35,235 nucleotides of DNA from Methanomicrobia archaeon. Lineage in GTDB: Archaea; Halobacteriota; Syntropharchaeia; Alkanophagales; Methanospirareceae. The position numbers and the translations under genes were made by a program. Shown in pieces: positions 849-26,233 of this stretch. Numbering within the stretch: position 1 is the first letter of the stretch; each line of letters starts with the position of its first letter. Location of the stretch: contig JAFGHB010000027.1 of assembly GCA_016930255.1 (NCBI GenBank), positions 1 to 35,235 of the forward strand. Reading direction: 5' to 3'. The notes under the pieces were generated by a model. The model searched no databases. It was not told the origin of the DNA and saw only the letters and a list, made by a program, of their open reading frames with translations.

Positions 849-1571
849 ATGAGCACGAACAACATCCCGGAATCGGTAAAGAAGGGTATAGCATACGTAC
901 AAGAGGGAAAACTCGTGTTGATCTACGATGCGGAAGATAGAGAAGGCGAGACGGACTTTGTCGTACCTGCTTCCTTTGTGACGCCCCGGACGGTCGCGTA
1001 TTTCAGGAACGAGGCTGGCGGGCTTATATGCGTTGCCATCCCTTCTACTGCTGCTGATAAACTCGGCCTTCCACTGATGAGTGATATTCTGAAGAACATG
1101 AATGATAACTACTCGTATCTCAGGAAGGTAGTAGAGGGAAAAGGCGACCTTCAGTACGATAAACGCTCTTCCTTCTCCCTCTGGGTGAACCATCGTGATA
1201 CGTTCACCGGCATAACCGATAGGGACAGGGCTTTGACCATAAAGAAGATAGGAGAAGCAGTGGAGAGAGTAGCGAACGGTGGTGACCGCTCGTGCGATTT
1301 TTACACGGAATTCCGAGCGCCAGGGCATGTCGCATTACTCAGAGCTGCGGATGGCCTGCTCGATGAAAGGCAAGGCCAGACAGAGCTTTCCGTGGCGTTG
1401 GCTCTGCTTGCAGGCATCCCTCCAGCTATGTTGATTTGCGAGATGTTAGATACCAAATCAGGGAGAGCGCTCTCCAAGACGGATGCAAAGGCTTTCGCAT
1501 CCAAACGAGGCATGATCTTTATGGAGGGGAAGGAGATAGTAGAAGCGTTTCATTCGCTTTCATCTTACTAA
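849..1571 (+). CDS. ribB: 3,4-dihydroxy-2-butanone 4-phosphate synthase
   Basis: The enzyme converts ribulose 5-phosphate to 3,4-dihydroxy-2-butanone 4-phosphate and formate, giving the four-carbon unit of riboflavin. The acidic metal-site motif D-REGETDF is at residues 30-37. The segments EAGGLICVAI, an FRAPGHVALLRA stretch with the conserved His, and QTELSVALALLAGIPPAMLICEML match the archaeal family along its full length (240 aa). It starts 6 nt after the RbkR stop, so the two are co-transcribed and presumably share control by RbkR. No ribH or ribC genes follow in this window. Confidence 0.93.
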   Translation: MSTNNIPESVKKGIAYVQEGKLVLIYDAEDREGETDFVVPASFVTPRTVAYFRNEAGGLICVAIPSTAADKLGLPLMSDILKNMNDNYSYLRKVVEGKGDLQYDKRSSFSLWVNHRDTFTGITDRDRALTIKKIGEAVERVANGGDRSCDFYTEFRAPGHVALLRAADGLLDERQGQTELSVALALLAGIPPAMLICEMLDTKSGRALSKTDAKAFASKRGMIFMEGKEIVEAFHSLSSY

Positions 1572-1581
1572 TCCAAATCAC

Positions 1582-1643
1582 ACCGCTCGTCAGCGGTCAT
1601 CATCTTCTCTTCAGGGGTTGCCAGATTAAGGCAACATTGCCTT
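1582..1643 (+). terminator. Hairpins after ribB, possible terminator region
   Basis: ACCGCT-CGTC-AGCGGT (1582-1597) is a 6-bp tetraloop hairpin followed by a pyrimidine-rich run. Just after it GTTGCC (1617-1622) can pair with GGCAAC (1630-1635), or AAGGCA (1628-1633) with TGCCTT (1638-1643), and the two pairings exclude each other. The role is inferred from position. Confidence 0.35.
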
Positions 1644-1795
1644 TGTGTGATAATTCTGAGTACTATTAACACAGAGCACATTGACAATAAGGCCTTTTTA
1701 TTACTGCTGAGAGAATACATATCCTAAAACCCAAATTCAGAAATGGCGCTGCCTTCCATTACCGAGAAGCATGGTTTTTTCTGCGTGGTGGCTGG

Positions 1796-2017
1796 CTATT
1801 TATAGCCGATGAAATTGCTCTTCGCCGCCATTGATGCGAGTTCGGATCCTAACACAAAAATAGCCTGCTTGTGCTCGTCCTTGCTACGGTGTACTTGAAA
1901 CGGCGAGATCGCAAGCTCGTTATATTTCTTGAAATCGCAATCCAAACCGTGCTCCTCACAATACTTCTTCATCTGAGCCAGTAACATATGGAGATGTACC
2001 AACTCCTCTTTCTTCAT
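1796..2017 (-). CDS. UPF0058 family protein
   Basis: This 73-aa protein matches the small archaeal UPF0058 family (function unknown). It begins KKEELVHLHMLLAQMKKY, has the family's FKKYNELAISPFQVHRSK core, and ends with the EHKQAIFVLGSELA helix. The several conserved His and acidic residues suggest metal binding, but that is inference. A clear Shine-Dalgarno AAAGGAGT sits just before the ATG, and a TATA box lies about 25-35 nt upstream. The gene is divergent from the tRNA-Thr/proS unit and shares its promoter gap. Confidence 0.85.
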   Translation of the reverse strand: MKKEELVHLHMLLAQMKKYCEEHGLDCDFKKYNELAISPFQVHRSKDEHKQAIFVLGSELASMAAKSNFIGYK

Positions 2018-2037
2018 GATACTCCTTTGCTTTTTTG

Positions 2038-2053
2038 TAGTATATAAATACTA
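2038..2053. promoter_or_regulatory. Bidirectional TATA dyad between UPF0058 and tRNA-Thr
   Basis: TAGTAT-ATAA-ATACTA is a dyad with TATA-like sequence on both strands. It is about 25 nt from the likely UPF0058 transcription start on the minus strand and 37 nt before the tRNA on the plus strand. It is the only good TATA candidate seen in the gap. Confidence 0.5.
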
Positions 2054-2089
2054 TGGCTCACAAAAGATTACCTGCACTATAGTACGGAT

Positions 2090-2161
2090 GCCGCTGTGGC
2101 TTAGAGGTAGAGCAGCTGATTCGTAATCAGCAGGTCGTGGGTTCAAATCCCACCAGCGGCT
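2090..2161 (+). tRNA. tRNA-Thr (anticodon CGT)
   Basis: The acceptor arms GCCGCTG (2090-2096) and CAGCGGC (2154-2160) pair fully. The anticodon stem GCTGA/TCAGC (2115-2119, 2127-2131) encloses loop TTCGTAA, so the anticodon is CGT and reads ACG. The T arm has GTGGGTTCAAATCCCAC. The discriminator base is T, as in many archaeal tRNA-Thr, and CCA is not encoded. There is no intron. proS begins 10 nt after the tRNA. Confidence 0.97.
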
Positions 2162-2171
2162 TTCACTAACA

Positions 2172-3677
2172 ATGCAACGCAAAGAGGAAGCCCAGACGGT
2201 CATACAGAAGGAAGGCAACTTCAGCGAGTGGTATGGCGAGATCCTGAAACGAGCAGAGATTCTGGACATCCGGTATCCGGTGAAGGGCGTGTATGTCTGG
2301 TATCCCTACGGCTACAAGTTGCGGAATCTCGTTTACAGCATTCTGCGGTCGCTCTTGAACGAGGAGCACGACGAGGTGAAGTTCCCTCTGCTCATACCGA
2401 AGGACGAGCTGATGAAGGAGAAGGAGCACATAAAGGGCTTCGAGGAGGAGGTCTTTTGGGTGACCCGAGGCGGGAGCACCGAATTGGATATTCCGCTCGC
2501 ACTCCGCCCTACCTCGGAGACCGCGATCTATCCTGTGTTTAAAGTCTGGATACGGTCGCATCGCGACTTACCTATCCGGATCTACCAGGTAGTAAATACG
2601 TTCAGATATGAGACGAAACATACACGACCGCTCATTCGGCTGCGGGAGATAACGTCATTCAAAGAGGCGCACACCGCGCACGCAACCTTGGCAGATGCAG
2701 AGGAGCAGGTAAAGAAGGCGATGACGTTATACAAAAGCTTCTTTGACCAGCTTGCAGTCCCTTATGTGATCACACGACGACCCGATTGGGACAAATTCCC
2801 GGGCGCGGAATATTCTATCGCCTTCGATACCGTTATGCCAGACGGCAGGACGTTGCAAATCGGGACGATTCATTTACTCGGCGAAAGCTTTGCACGAACC
2901 TTTGACATAAAATACGAGGATAAAGACGGCTCGTTGCAGTTCGTAAATCAGACCTGCTACGGCATTTCGGAGCGATGCGTCGCCTCGGTGATCGCGATTC
3001 ACGGTGATGACCACGGCCTTGTACTGCCGCCACAAGTCGCACCCATACAGGTCGTTATCGTGCCGATCCTATTCTCACGCAAGGCAGGAGGAAGCGAAAA
3101 CGGCGGAAATCCTGTGGAGGATGCATGCATAGTAGTATACGAGGAATCAAAGAAAGCGGGCATACGAGCGTTCCTGGATGATTCAGAGGACAGACCGGGT
3201 GCAAAGTTTTATCGATGGGAGATGCGCGGCGTGCCTTTGCGAATCGAGCTCGGCCCGCGGGATTTGAAGAGCAAGAGCTGCGAATTTGTAATGAGAAGCG
3301 ACGGCAGCCGGAAACACGTCCCGCTTCGTGATGTTGTACCTGAAGTGCAGCGAACGCTGGAAGAAATCCAAATGAGCATTCATGACGATGCGAACGAAGC
3401 GCTACGCACTTCCATTTATACCTACGACGAGAACAGCAGAGGTAACGAGAGCAGCGAGGAGACGATGGCTGAGTTGAAAAGAAAGACTGAACGAGGCATT
3501 GTATCCCTATTCCTGTGCGGCAGCGAAGAATGCGGGCAGGCGATAGAGGAGCAGCTTGGTGTAAGCGTGTTAGGCGAGGCAGTAAACGGGACTATCGAAG
3601 AGCGCGAAAAGGGCGAATGTAACTGCGTGATCTGCTCACGACCTGCAAAGAGGGTGTATGTCGCTCGCGCATATTGA
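2172..3677 (+). CDS. proS: Prolyl-tRNA synthetase, archaeal/eukaryotic type
   Basis: The enzyme charges tRNA-Pro with proline. The 501-aa protein begins with the family's NFSEWYGEILKRAEILDIRY block. It shows class II motif 2 (VVNTFRYETK, then RLREITSFKEAHTAH) and motif 3 (GDDHGLVLPPQVAPIQ), then an anticodon-binding domain. It ends with a C-terminal Zn-type region with paired cysteines (CGSEECG, CNCVIC) and a terminal tyrosine, all typical of the archaeal class. The start is only 10 nt after tRNA-Thr, with no Shine-Dalgarno and no room for a separate TATA outside the tRNA. The mRNA is therefore probably the 3' product of tRNA processing. Confidence 0.97.
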   Translation: MQRKEEAQTVIQKEGNFSEWYGEILKRAEILDIRYPVKGVYVWYPYGYKLRNLVYSILRSLLNEEHDEVKFPLLIPKDELMKEKEHIKGFEEEVFWVTRGGSTELDIPLALRPTSETAIYPVFKVWIRSHRDLPIRIYQVVNTFRYETKHTRPLIRLREITSFKEAHTAHATLADAEEQVKKAMTLYKSFFDQLAVPYVITRRPDWDKFPGAEYSIAFDTVMPDGRTLQIGTIHLLGESFARTFDIKYEDKDGSLQFVNQTCYGISERCVASVIAIHGDDHGLVLPPQVAPIQVVIVPILFSRKAGGSENGGNPVEDACIVVYEESKKAGIRAFLDDSEDRPGAKFYRWEMRGVPLRIELGPRDLKSKSCEFVMRSDGSRKHVPLRDVVPEVQRTLEEIQMSIHDDANEALRTSIYTYDENSRGNESSEETMAELKRKTERGIVSLFLCGSEECGQAIEEQLGVSVLGEAVNGTIEEREKGECNCVICSRPAKRVYVARAY

Positions 3678-22924: not shown

Positions 22925-23240
22925 TGTGCGGGCTAGCCTGGAGGGTTAGGCGTCCTCTGTAACTCGAAATCGCCGATATGCGAGGGGCGAAGCCTGAGGA
23001 AGGCTCTGTGGCTACCAATTTCAGCTCACGGTTGGACGAAGAAGCACCGCCCTGCGGGGTTGGCGGTGGTATGGTGGCTGGCTGGAGGGCCTGTTGCCAT
23101 GCCTTTGTCATGGAGATCGGTTCAGGCCCGGAAGGGAGCAGACTCACTGTGAACGTTGGCGCTCGGAGGATAGTGGTGTGGAGAAAGACCTTGAGGGCCT
23201 GGTTGATGGCGACGGTGTCGACTGAGGGCGTGCCCGCACA
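22925..23240 (+). ncRNA. Archaeal signal recognition particle RNA (7S RNA)
   Basis: This RNA of about 316 nt scaffolds SRP19 and SRP54 and targets secretory proteins to the membrane. The ends TGTGCGGGC (22925-22933) and GCCCGCACA (23232-23240) form the archaeal helix 1. The Alu domain carries TGTAA at 22959-22963. The SRP54-binding helix 8 is unmistakable: CAGGCCCGGAAGGGAGCAG at 23123-23141, closed by GGTTC and GAAC. The small helix with CCATG/CATGG (23097-23112) before it fits helix 6. A TATA box is correctly placed upstream. The open frames that cross this region are not genes. Confidence 0.96.
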
Positions 23241-23243
23241 ATC

Positions 23244-23266
23244 AAACTTTCTTTGAAAGAAAGTTT
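23244..23266. repeat. 23-nt palindrome after the SRP RNA
   Basis: AAACTTTCTTT-G-AAAGAAAGTTT is perfect over 11 bp on each side of one base. It starts 4 nt after the SRP RNA terminal stem and overlaps the first 48-nt direct repeat. It may act as a terminator or be the tip of a repeat element. Confidence 0.7.
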
Positions 23267-23303
23267 AATCAAAGAACTCAAAGAAAAGGTTTATCAAAAG
23301 AAC
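23256..23303 (+). repeat. 48-nt direct repeat, copy 1
   Basis: The 48-nt sequence begins AAAGAAAGTTTAATCAAAG and ends GGTTTATCAAAAGAAC. It matches copy 2 at 45 of 48 positions, with copies 170 nt apart. Confidence 0.9.
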
Positions 23304-23337
23304 TATCTCTCCTGCAGCAAGAAAGGTTAGGCAAAGG

Positions 23338-23347
23338 ATATTTATAC
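23338..23347 (+). promoter_or_regulatory. TATA-like element inside the repeat block
   Basis: ATATTTATAC after a purine-rich GCAAAGG would start transcription near 23370, inside the hairpin cluster. No protein gene follows on this strand. Confidence 0.35.
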
Positions 23348-23356
23348 TGGGCACGC

Positions 23357-23412
23357 CCCACGACCCCGCATCGTGGGCTCTGCCCACGTCCCCGAAAACC
23401 CTGAAAGGGTTT
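23357..23412 (+). other. Hairpin cluster between the two repeats, possible small RNA
   Basis: CCCACGA (23357-23363) pairs with TCGTGGG (23371-23377). The same central bases can instead form CGTGGGC-TCT-GCCCACG (23372-23388). A third hairpin is AAACCCT-GAA-AGGGTTT (23396-23412). A T-run at 23497-23507 could end a transcript started at about 23370. Nothing identifies an RNA family. Confidence 0.35.
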
Positions 23413-23425
23413 ACTGTAAGGGCTT

Positions 23426-23473
23426 AAAGAAAGTTTGATCAAAGAACTCAAAGAAGTGGTTTATCAAAAGAAC
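23426..23473 (+). repeat. 48-nt direct repeat, copy 2
   Basis: This copy differs from copy 1 at one third-codon-like position and at two adjacent bases. In the frame starting at its first base it is open and continues for 15 more codons after the repeat before a stop. The rest of the gap up to 23578 shows no gene. Confidence 0.9.
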
Positions 23474-23578: not shown

Positions 23579-26233
23579 TCAGGGATTGATGTTCTTAGAG
23601 CGGTGAATTGTTCGTACCATCAATTTTCTGATTTCATCCGCGCTAAAGAGAAGGACGGCAAATGGCAGGAGAATGAGCCAATCACCGAGAGTGAGCGCCG
23701 TAGTGCCAATTATGTGCTGTAAAGGCGGGGTGTAGATGATGGCGAGCACCAGGAGTATCTCGAGAGCTATACCAAGAAGCAGATATTTGTTGGTCAGGAG
23801 TCCTATTTTAAAGAGGGATTCCTTGGCCGATCGACAGGTTAAGCCGTTGGCCATCTGTGCGACCACGATAGCCGCAAAGGTGATGGAGGTTGCCCTGAGG
23901 TAAAGCGGATCTACTTGTGAGAGGCTCATCCCATAGCTCCATCCGCCACTTTTTAAGACGAAGTAATAGCCGGTCAGGGCTGCGATTGCCTCGATGAGCC
24001 CGAGGAACAGATATGACCGCGCGAGGCTGCCCCGGGTGAGGAGTCGTTCGTTGCGGCTCCGTGGCGAGCGTGTCATCACGTCCGGTTCTGGCTTCTCGGC
24101 GCCAAGAGCTATGGAGGGCACCATCTCCGTGCCGAGGTCGATGGCGAGGATCTGAATCACGGTAATGGGGAGTGGTATACGGAGGAGTATGAAGAGGAGG
24201 TAGGGTACGATCTCCGGGGTAAGATGCGAGAAGATATACGTGATGAAACTCCGAATATTATCGAAAACGGTTCGCCCTTCTTCTATTGCCGATACAATCG
24301 TGGCGAAGTTATCATCTATCAGAATCATATCAGCCGATTCTCGCGCGACATCAGTTCCTGCTTTACCCATAGCAATGCCGATATCCGCCTCTTTAAGCGC
24401 CGGTGCGTCATTGACGCCGTCACCGGTTACCGCCACGATCGCCCCCATGTCCCGTAAGGTCCTCACGATGCGGAGCTTATGAGTCGGCGTGGCTCGCGCA
24501 AAGAGCACCTCACCTCTGAGCGCGTCTTCAAGCTCTGCATTGCTCATCCCGTCCAGTTCACGGCCGGTGATCGTCACGGGATCGCTTGCTATCCCCACCT
24601 CCTTTGCGATTGCCCTTCCCGTCTCCGGACTGTCGCCCGTTATGAGTATGACGGTGATGCCAGCCTGTTTGCATTTTTCCACCGCACGCGGCACTTCCTC
24701 GCGGGGCGGATCCCAGAGCGCGGCGAGTCCGAGGAACACCAGCCCATCCTCGAGCGTTTCTCGCTGGTACTCATCATCGAGCTGCTTTTTGGCAAACGCC
24801 ATCACGCGCATGCCCCTGCTCGCATAATCCGAGACTTGCGCTTTTATTCGCTCCCTGTCCTCCGCACCAAGGTTTTTGGAGGCGTTTTTCCCCGCAGCAA
24901 TGCGAGTGCATCCTGCAAGTATGATCTCGGGTGCACCCTTCGCGTAGAGTACGAGTACGTCATCTTTACGGTTCACCGTGCTCATCATCTTCCGTTCCGG
25001 AGTGAAGGCGAGTTCCTCCACGCGTTCCCACTGAGTTTGCACCTCGTCCATGACGGCCAGTGCAGCTCGCAGAAGTGCCGCCTCGGTCGGCTCACCAATT
25101 ACCTTGTTTCCTTCTACTTTCGCATTGTTGCACAGGATCGCGCCGAGCAGCAATTCGCACGGCTCCGCTTGACTTATTCTGCTACTGCCGGTGGGTGCTG
25201 TGTAAAGGTACTCGAGGGTCATCTCGTTCTTCGTGATGGTCCCGGTTTTATCCGTGCATATCACGGTCGCATCTCCCAATGTCTCCACTGATGAGAGCCT
25301 CTTTACGAGCGCATTCTTCTTTGCCATGCGCTGAGTAGCAAGGGAGAGGGATAACGTGACTGTGGGCAGCAGCCCCTCAGGAACGCACGCCACGATAATA
25401 CCAATGGCAAAGAGGAAGTTGTCCCAGACGGTTATGCCGATGAGATCCCCGGCGGCGAAAAATATCAGGCCGAGACCGATTGCTATACTGGCAATGACAC
25501 GAATCACCAGGGTAAGCTCTCGCTGAAGCGGTGTAGGCGCCTCTCCCACCTCCTGCGTGAGATGGGCTATCTTCCCAAATTCCGTCGCCATGCCGGTGGC
25601 AAAGACTGCCGCGATACCATTCCCCCGCACCACGGTCGATCCGGAATAGATAAGGTTAGCAAATTCGATATCGCTCTCTTCGGGAAGATCCGTCCTTGGT
25701 TGCGGCTCTGATTCGCCCGTCAGGGTAGAGTTGTCCACGGCAAGGTCAACCGCTTTGATCACTCGTGCATCTGCAGGCACACGGTCGCCTTCCTGCACCA
25801 CCACGATGTCTCCGGGCACGATCTCTTTTGCGGGTATCTGTACTTCCTCGCCACCTCGAATCACGCGGGCTTGATGTGGCATCAACTTTTTTAACGCCTC
25901 TGAAGCTTTCTCCGCACGGTATTCCTGCAGAAAGGAGAAGAAGCCGTTGATGAAGATCACTATGATTATCGCATAGCCCAGGTTTGCCATGCTCACATCC
26001 TCTCCAAGGCGGCTTGCGAGAATGGCGAGTCCGGCGGCGATCCACAGGAGTATCGCGAACCAGTTCACCAGGTGGGATGCGAATTGATATGTCCGGCGAA
26101 CCTGTTTTCGCTTAACGATTACATTTGCTCCGAAATCCCCGAGCCGTCTTTCTGCTTCCTTGCTCGTTAAGCCCAATTCAGTAGTATTCAGTTCTCGGAG
26201 CACCTGCTCTTTCGAGAGGGTGTGAATCTTCAT
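23579..26233 (-). CDS. P-type cation ATPase, type IIC-like (Na+/K+-ATPase family)
   Basis: The 884-aa ion pump has an N-terminal cation-ATPase domain, LTGES (171-175), PEGLLP in helix M4 (285-290), the phosphorylated Asp328 in CTDKTGT and GDGVNDAP in the P domain. PEGLL and the M6 block DLGTEMVPSIALGAEKPEPD followed by MTRSPR match Na+/K+- and H+/K+-ATPases rather than the Ca2+ type (PEALP). Compared with the animal pump, the second M6 acid is Glu instead of Asp, and the M5 Ser-Asn pair is His-Leu. Ion specificity is thus uncertain. No beta subunit is nearby. Its ATG overlaps the Usp stop by 4 nt, so the pair is one operon. Confidence 0.92.
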   Translation of the reverse strand: MKIHTLSKEQVLRELNTTELGLTSKEAERRLGDFGANVIVKRKQVRRTYQFASHLVNWFAILLWIAAGLAILASRLGEDVSMANLGYAIIIVIFINGFFSFLQEYRAEKASEALKKLMPHQARVIRGGEEVQIPAKEIVPGDIVVVQEGDRVPADARVIKAVDLAVDNSTLTGESEPQPRTDLPEESDIEFANLIYSGSTVVRGNGIAAVFATGMATEFGKIAHLTQEVGEAPTPLQRELTLVIRVIASIAIGLGLIFFAAGDLIGITVWDNFLFAIGIIVACVPEGLLPTVTLSLSLATQRMAKKNALVKRLSSVETLGDATVICTDKTGTITKNEMTLEYLYTAPTGSSRISQAEPCELLLGAILCNNAKVEGNKVIGEPTEAALLRAALAVMDEVQTQWERVEELAFTPERKMMSTVNRKDDVLVLYAKGAPEIILAGCTRIAAGKNASKNLGAEDRERIKAQVSDYASRGMRVMAFAKKQLDDEYQRETLEDGLVFLGLAALWDPPREEVPRAVEKCKQAGITVILITGDSPETGRAIAKEVGIASDPVTITGRELDGMSNAELEDALRGEVLFARATPTHKLRIVRTLRDMGAIVAVTGDGVNDAPALKEADIGIAMGKAGTDVARESADMILIDDNFATIVSAIEEGRTVFDNIRSFITYIFSHLTPEIVPYLLFILLRIPLPITVIQILAIDLGTEMVPSIALGAEKPEPDVMTRSPRSRNERLLTRGSLARSYLFLGLIEAIAALTGYYFVLKSGGWSYGMSLSQVDPLYLRATSITFAAIVVAQMANGLTCRSAKESLFKIGLLTNKYLLLGIALEILLVLAIIYTPPLQHIIGTTALTLGDWLILLPFAVLLFSADEIRKLMVRTIHRSKNINP

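Follow-up and report, generated by a model that had tools for sequence, protein, structure and literature searches.

Evidence for a dispersed family of gene-edge hairpin repeats in ANME-1/Methanophagales archaea

What is the palindrome, with its long direct repeats, that stands directly behind the SRP RNA gene of an ANME-1 archaeon, and does it belong to that gene alone? ANME-1 archaea are major consumers of methane in marine sediments. To our knowledge, they have never been obtained in pure culture, and the delimitation and regulation of their genes are therefore poorly understood. The locus was analyzed in a window of 35,235 nucleotides, which is contig C27 of a 2.23-Mb genome in 87 contigs. 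According to the original prediction, a 23-nt palindrome just past the SRP RNA and two 48-nt direct repeats 170 nt apart represented a dispersed element or a functional site, perhaps inserted next to the SRP gene. The features concerned are collected in Table 1.

Table 1. Features of the SRP 3' gap and its two flanking genes, with positions in the window
Feature	Position	Strand	Basis or composition
Archaeal SRP RNA gene	22926..23239	+	Rfam RF01857, 185 bits, full model length
Complete alpha palindrome AAACTTTCTTT-G-AAAGAAAGTTT, SRP 3' edge	23244..23266		Sequence and inverted repeat
Direct repeat copy 1	23256..23303	+	Alpha right arm plus tail (23256-23277), beta-type right arm (23280-23303)
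GC-rich double-hairpin module GGGCACGCCCCACGACC...GAAAACCCTGAAAGGGTTT...AAGGGCTT, between the repeat copies	23349..23425		Sequence, folding
Direct repeat copy 2	23426..23473	+	Alpha right arm plus tail, beta-type right arm; left arm absent
Convergent gene, presumably for a P-type cation ATPase	23579..26233	-	ORF of 884 aa, CTDKTGT motif

Both local features were confirmed. The 23-nt palindrome was perfect, was separated from the SRP RNA end by 4 nt, and formed a 10-bp hairpin when folded as either RNA or DNA; a longer version with 14/14-nt inverted repeats, 93% complementary, extended over 23241-23269. The direct repeats agreed at 45 of 48 positions. The 48-nt repeat in the SRP gap is beyond chance, the best 48-nt self-match after 200 shufflings of the intergenic region amounting to 28 identities. 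When up to 3 mismatches were allowed in the 21-nt core, only the two repeat sites were found in the window (expected number, 0.00). The 48-mer proved to be a composite of two half-units, namely an alpha right arm plus tail (AAAGAAAGTTTxATCAAAGAAC) and, behind it, the right arm from a beta-type palindrome (AAAGAAxxGGTTTATCAAAAGAAC). Each half-unit is present alone elsewhere, the beta half occurring solo in genus mates, and a comparable alpha plus beta composite lies upstream of TiaS on contig C31 of the same genome. The palindrome is complete in copy 1 only. In copy 2, the right arm is preceded by the unrelated GC-rich module, and modules akin to this double hairpin are scattered through the own and related genomes.

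Copies were then counted in other genomes, mostly draft metagenome assemblies. At up to 2 mismatches, the 21-nt core turned up 7 times in the own genome and as often as 41 times in a family mate, and its reversed control gave no match. Outside the ANME-1/Methanophagales family, the core was nearly absent. The alpha/beta pattern was represented in 33 of 36 family genomes, with up to 97 copies per genome, the exact-match seeding being biased toward alpha copies. Genomes of other families had at most 3 copies each, and the reversed pattern gave almost none. A search of a named collection returned at least 120 stretches, most of which came from archaea under the label Methanophagales, ANME-1, or Methanosarcinales; among the matches listed were a few DPANN archaea and a few gut Clostridia. 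The 21-mer was also carried by two viral contigs. The family is thus almost confined to ANME-1/Methanophagales, the archaeal family of the window. The predicted dispersal was evident, since the sequence recurs in its own genome and in nearly all family genomes, mostly between predicted genes, as a repeat family with many intergenic copies; it is neither unique to this locus nor freely varying. The family was undescribed for ANME-1 in the part of the literature that our search covered, and ANME is unmentioned in a REP survey (PMC12306157); it apparently has not been described before.

The unit, CAAACTTTCTTT-nnn-AAAGAAAGTTTGATCAAAGAA or one of its beta variants, is a hairpin of 10-12 bp that carries a conserved tail. 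The consensus of 131 copies reads CAAACTTTCTTTnnnAAAGAAAGTTTGATCAAAGAAAC followed by AT-rich sequence, with GATCAAAGAAAC as the tail and no GTAG/CGTC tag at the foot of the palindrome. Among 200 tail-anchored sites, 106 paired with the adjacent arm at 10 or more of 12 positions, and none did so after the 3' side had been shuffled. At each of two pair positions, 13 sites carried a C-G/T-A double change; these represent one shared arm-length variant and not 13 independent events. Another pair position had a G-G mismatch in 26 sites. Copies occur in mosaics with other hairpin modules.

Placement relative to genes was evaluated for the 72 copies that were left once orthologue-like left flanks had been removed. 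Genes were called with a simple ORF picker and ARAGORN, so individual gene borders are approximate. The left foot of the hairpin lay between -8 and 4 nt from a gene in 24 of the 72 copies (12 ORF starts, 6 ORF stops, and 6 tRNA ends), and 7 further copies overlapped an ORF end. For the 58 clearly intergenic copies, 19 were found at 0-4 nt from an edge, compared with 7.3 expected under uniform placement and a maximum of 16 in 20,000 simulations. The hairpin foot often abutted a gene or RNA edge directly, and the tail then faced away from it. The original prediction had proposed checking whether copies flank RNA genes. This holds for SRP, tRNA-Pro, tRNA-Arg, and tRNA-Cys but not as an exclusive rule, because the starts and stops of protein genes are flanked too. 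Starts and stops were abutted alike, and the neighbouring gene read toward the abutted edge, the arrangement considered for a read-through insulator, in 17 of 29 cases. The class of gap made no difference (35 tandem, 12 divergent, and 11 convergent for the 58 copies versus a background of 85, 44, and 41; p = 0.40), and a terminator-like bias by gap class was rejected. We are highly confident that the repeats form a dispersed, edge-hugging palindrome family.

Three edges with a hairpin in the own genome, and chosen for that reason, were compared across genera: the TiaS start, the start of the adenylate kinase gene (AdK), and the SRP 3' end. Under the strict tail pattern, 10 of 18 family genomes had a tail-bearing hairpin at the TiaS start (9 of 17 without the own genome), 7 of 14 had one at the AdK start (6 of 13), and 6 of 18 had one at the SRP 3' end (5 of 17). 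Five control edges (TiaS 3', AdK 3', ProRS 5' and 3', and SRP 5') gave 0 of 85, the ProRS control being weakened by some starts that the ORF picker had misassigned. If remnants and hybrids judged by eye are included, the SRP 3' edge reached 13 of 18; in several family genomes this edge was without any hairpin. Alpha, beta, and hybrid hairpins interchange at one position; L255 and L258 exemplify this upstream of TiaS. Identity to the own TiaS protein is ~69-76% in the compared genomes, a divergence at which similarity would not be expected to survive in unconstrained spacer DNA. The shared sites may either have been maintained or have been rewritten repeatedly by related copies. Hairpin-filled and hairpin-free genomes coexist at TiaS, AdK, and SRP, with flanks too diverged to define a junction. 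As other genera have a family hairpin at this very SRP 3' edge, the repeats are not a recent insertion private to the own genome, and the suggested insertion next to the SRP gene did not hold in this sense.

REP and BIME sequences are repetitive extragenic palindromes tagged with GTAG or CGTC (PMC3733652, PMC2817692). REPs lie near ORF ends, sometimes supply the stop codon, and in REP-rich genomes prefer unidirectional and convergent gaps (PMC3733652). Like REPs, the ANME-1 family is made up of palindromic stem-loops of 20-40 bp that are many, mostly intergenic, mosaic, near ORF ends, and in some cases the source of a stop codon. Unlike them, it has the tail GATCAAAG without a terminal GTAG/CGTC tetranucleotide, shows no preference for unidirectional or convergent gaps, abuts start codons beside 3' ends, and recurs at orthologous edges across genera. 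A Y1/RAYT (TnpA-REP) transposase is a further point of difference: PF01797 (Y1), searched in 35 genomes, was absent in all 8 own-genus drafts (56-98% completeness). The palindrome-associated transposable elements (PATE) of Haloquadratum walsbyi (PMC3119063) are likewise archaeal, transposase-free, and non-coding, and have palindromes near the element ends, whereas no defined two-ended element was found for the ANME-1 family, nor, among 30 Y1 loci of relatives, an IS605-type element with matching ends. Because the GTAG/CGTC tag is missing, Y1 was absent from the own genus, and no coding element with matching ends was found among the Y1 loci, the family is best read as REP-like and PATE-resembling but a member of neither.

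A third system for comparison is the archaeal U-tract terminator, which is reported to be acted on by aCPSF1/FttA (PMC7515710, PMC8716108). T-rich stretches of the ANME-1 family at gene ends could act in the same way. As far as we know, such terminators function without a palindrome and do not belong to any dispersed family of homologous repeats. The ANME-1 family differs from terminators in being unenriched in convergent gaps and downstream of genes, starts and stops being occupied alike.

The explanation we favour, to which we give about an even chance, is that of a lineage-specific, REP-like family of intergenic palindromes in ANME-1/Methanophagales that spread early and whose copies were kept at transcript boundaries. 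The early spread would have been that of a non-autonomous element, by single-strand transposition or template switching, and copies would have been retained where a hairpin with a U-rich strand was useful at a transcript boundary. What the analysis shows is placement, orientation, palindromic form, and recurrence; a role of the palindromes at such boundaries is inferred. In the window, the 3' end of the 884-aa ORF, which we take from its motif to be a P-type cation ATPase, faces the SRP 3' end; thus two gene 3' ends meet within the gap, and no gene start lies inside it. T made up 27 of 48 positions of copy 1 and 24 of 48 of copy 2 on the minus strand, the one that transcripts running from the ATPase gene toward SRP read. 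Against such a role, T runs within the palindrome did not exceed 3 on the plus strand past the SRP RNA, and the SRP 3' edge had no hairpin in several family genomes. Given that the SRP and ATPase genes both have their 3' ends here and that ATPase-side transcripts read the T-rich strand, the most likely job of the repeats here would be to end or trim read-through between the convergent SRP and ATPase genes, plausibly by the archaeal U-tract/aCPSF1 (FttA) mode. A U-rich run on ATPase read-through RNA would keep antisense read-through out of the SRP gene. Across the family, the evidence does not point to termination in particular, as convergent gaps are unenriched and neighbours read toward the edge in the 17 of 29 cases given above. 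In a more ambitious and doubtful form, the interchangeable hairpins, maintained throughout the taxonomic family at fixed edges of particular unlinked genes, would be a shared punctuation system that marks or insulates transcript boundaries in ANME-1. It is equally speculative that this system would cover start, stop, and RNA-end edges and that the hairpin-plus-GATCAAAG units of DPANN archaea and gut Clostridia are its wider relatives. An edge-hugging, arm-swapping family that recurs across genera offers a testable handle on transcript boundaries in ANME-1, and it prompts one to ask what lets REP-like repeats last where no transposase is visible.

Alternatively, the palindromes could be selfish and mobile, of the PATE or REP type, and be moved in trans by a Y1 HUH transposase; their bias toward gene edges would then stem from loss elsewhere, and they would have no host function. 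We regard this as unlikely, though worth serious consideration. The copies are short, transposase-free, dispersed, mosaic with other hairpin modules, and indifferent to gene orientation, and Y1 transposases are present in several genera of the family, all of which is consistent with such an origin. The 0 of 8 count in the own genus speaks against it, as do the 30 Y1 loci fetched from relatives, which had no consistent alpha/beta motif at their ends, and the recurrence at orthologous edges across genera suggests retention. With no Y1 transposase in the 8 own-genus drafts and no consistent motif at the ends of the 30 loci, the link to Y1 was rejected.

The hairpins could also be portable promoters or 5' leaders, the tail and the adjoining AT-rich sequence giving a TATA box to the gene at the foot. 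A TATA-like sequence was indeed found outside the tail in 5 of 14 copies at gene starts, and the own-genome AdK has TTTATAT upstream of its hairpin; with 2 of 16 at 3' edges and 6 of 30 elsewhere, there was no clear difference between locations. Equally many copies abut 3' edges, and the gap in the window lacks a gene start. We consider this model, which was left unsupported by TATA enrichment at 5' edges, very improbable. A scan for bacterial promoter and terminator consensus sequences gave chance-level matches only. It is hardly probable at all that a 48-nt segment of the SRP intergenic region was simply duplicated locally, without wider significance, for although the 45 of 48 identities over the whole alpha plus beta composite are closer than in any other copy found and such an event may account for the origin of copy 2, it does not account for the family, both halves being dispersed modules with a similar composite upstream of TiaS.

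The SRP neighbourhood varied among the relatives. One gene lies downstream of SRP in an orientation that differs between L054, L064, L076, and L079 on the one hand and L063, L067, L069, L071, and L074 on the other, being convergent in some genera and co-directional in others. Thus, a rearrangement breakpoint falls in or near the hairpin-bearing SRP gap. The gene probably encodes a TrkH-type transporter, as judged from its sequence. In hairpin-free L059 (G015), a repeat-spacer array with the unit CTTTCAATCCTACCTTAGTCCGTGTTTAAC, probably a CRISPR, starts ~90 nt past the SRP RNA.

Similar modules were seen in other settings. In gut Clostridia/Oscillospiraceae (L096, L111, L132, L197, L097, L137, and L162), GGGGCTCTGCCCC-rich modules are followed by AAACTTTCTTGAAAGAAAGTTTGATCAAAGAAC, an arrangement very like the ANME-1 composite that could reflect either convergence or shared ancestry. 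Near position 4942 of L179, from a Micrarchaeota assembly, an alpha-like hairpin, CCAAACTTTTGAGAAAAGTTTGATCAAAAG, splits an apparent tRNA at the anticodon loop and is possibly a tRNA intron. In L003, L004, and L022 (G000:C7, C84), gene 3'-end fragments with ...NDWIPAIRL-like ends alternate with family hairpins, as though a gene end had multiplied along with the palindrome. Finally, a GC-rich hairpin module, GGGGCTTCGCCCCGTTGACCACGAAAACCCTGTAAGGGTTT, lies in frame within the tryptophanyl-tRNA synthetase gene of L010 (G000:C12; module at 1501-1524, ORF 897-2276, minus strand). It encodes NKPLQGFRGQRGEAPL in a region unmatched in solved homologues and recalls the palindromic elements of Rickettsia, which insert in genes.
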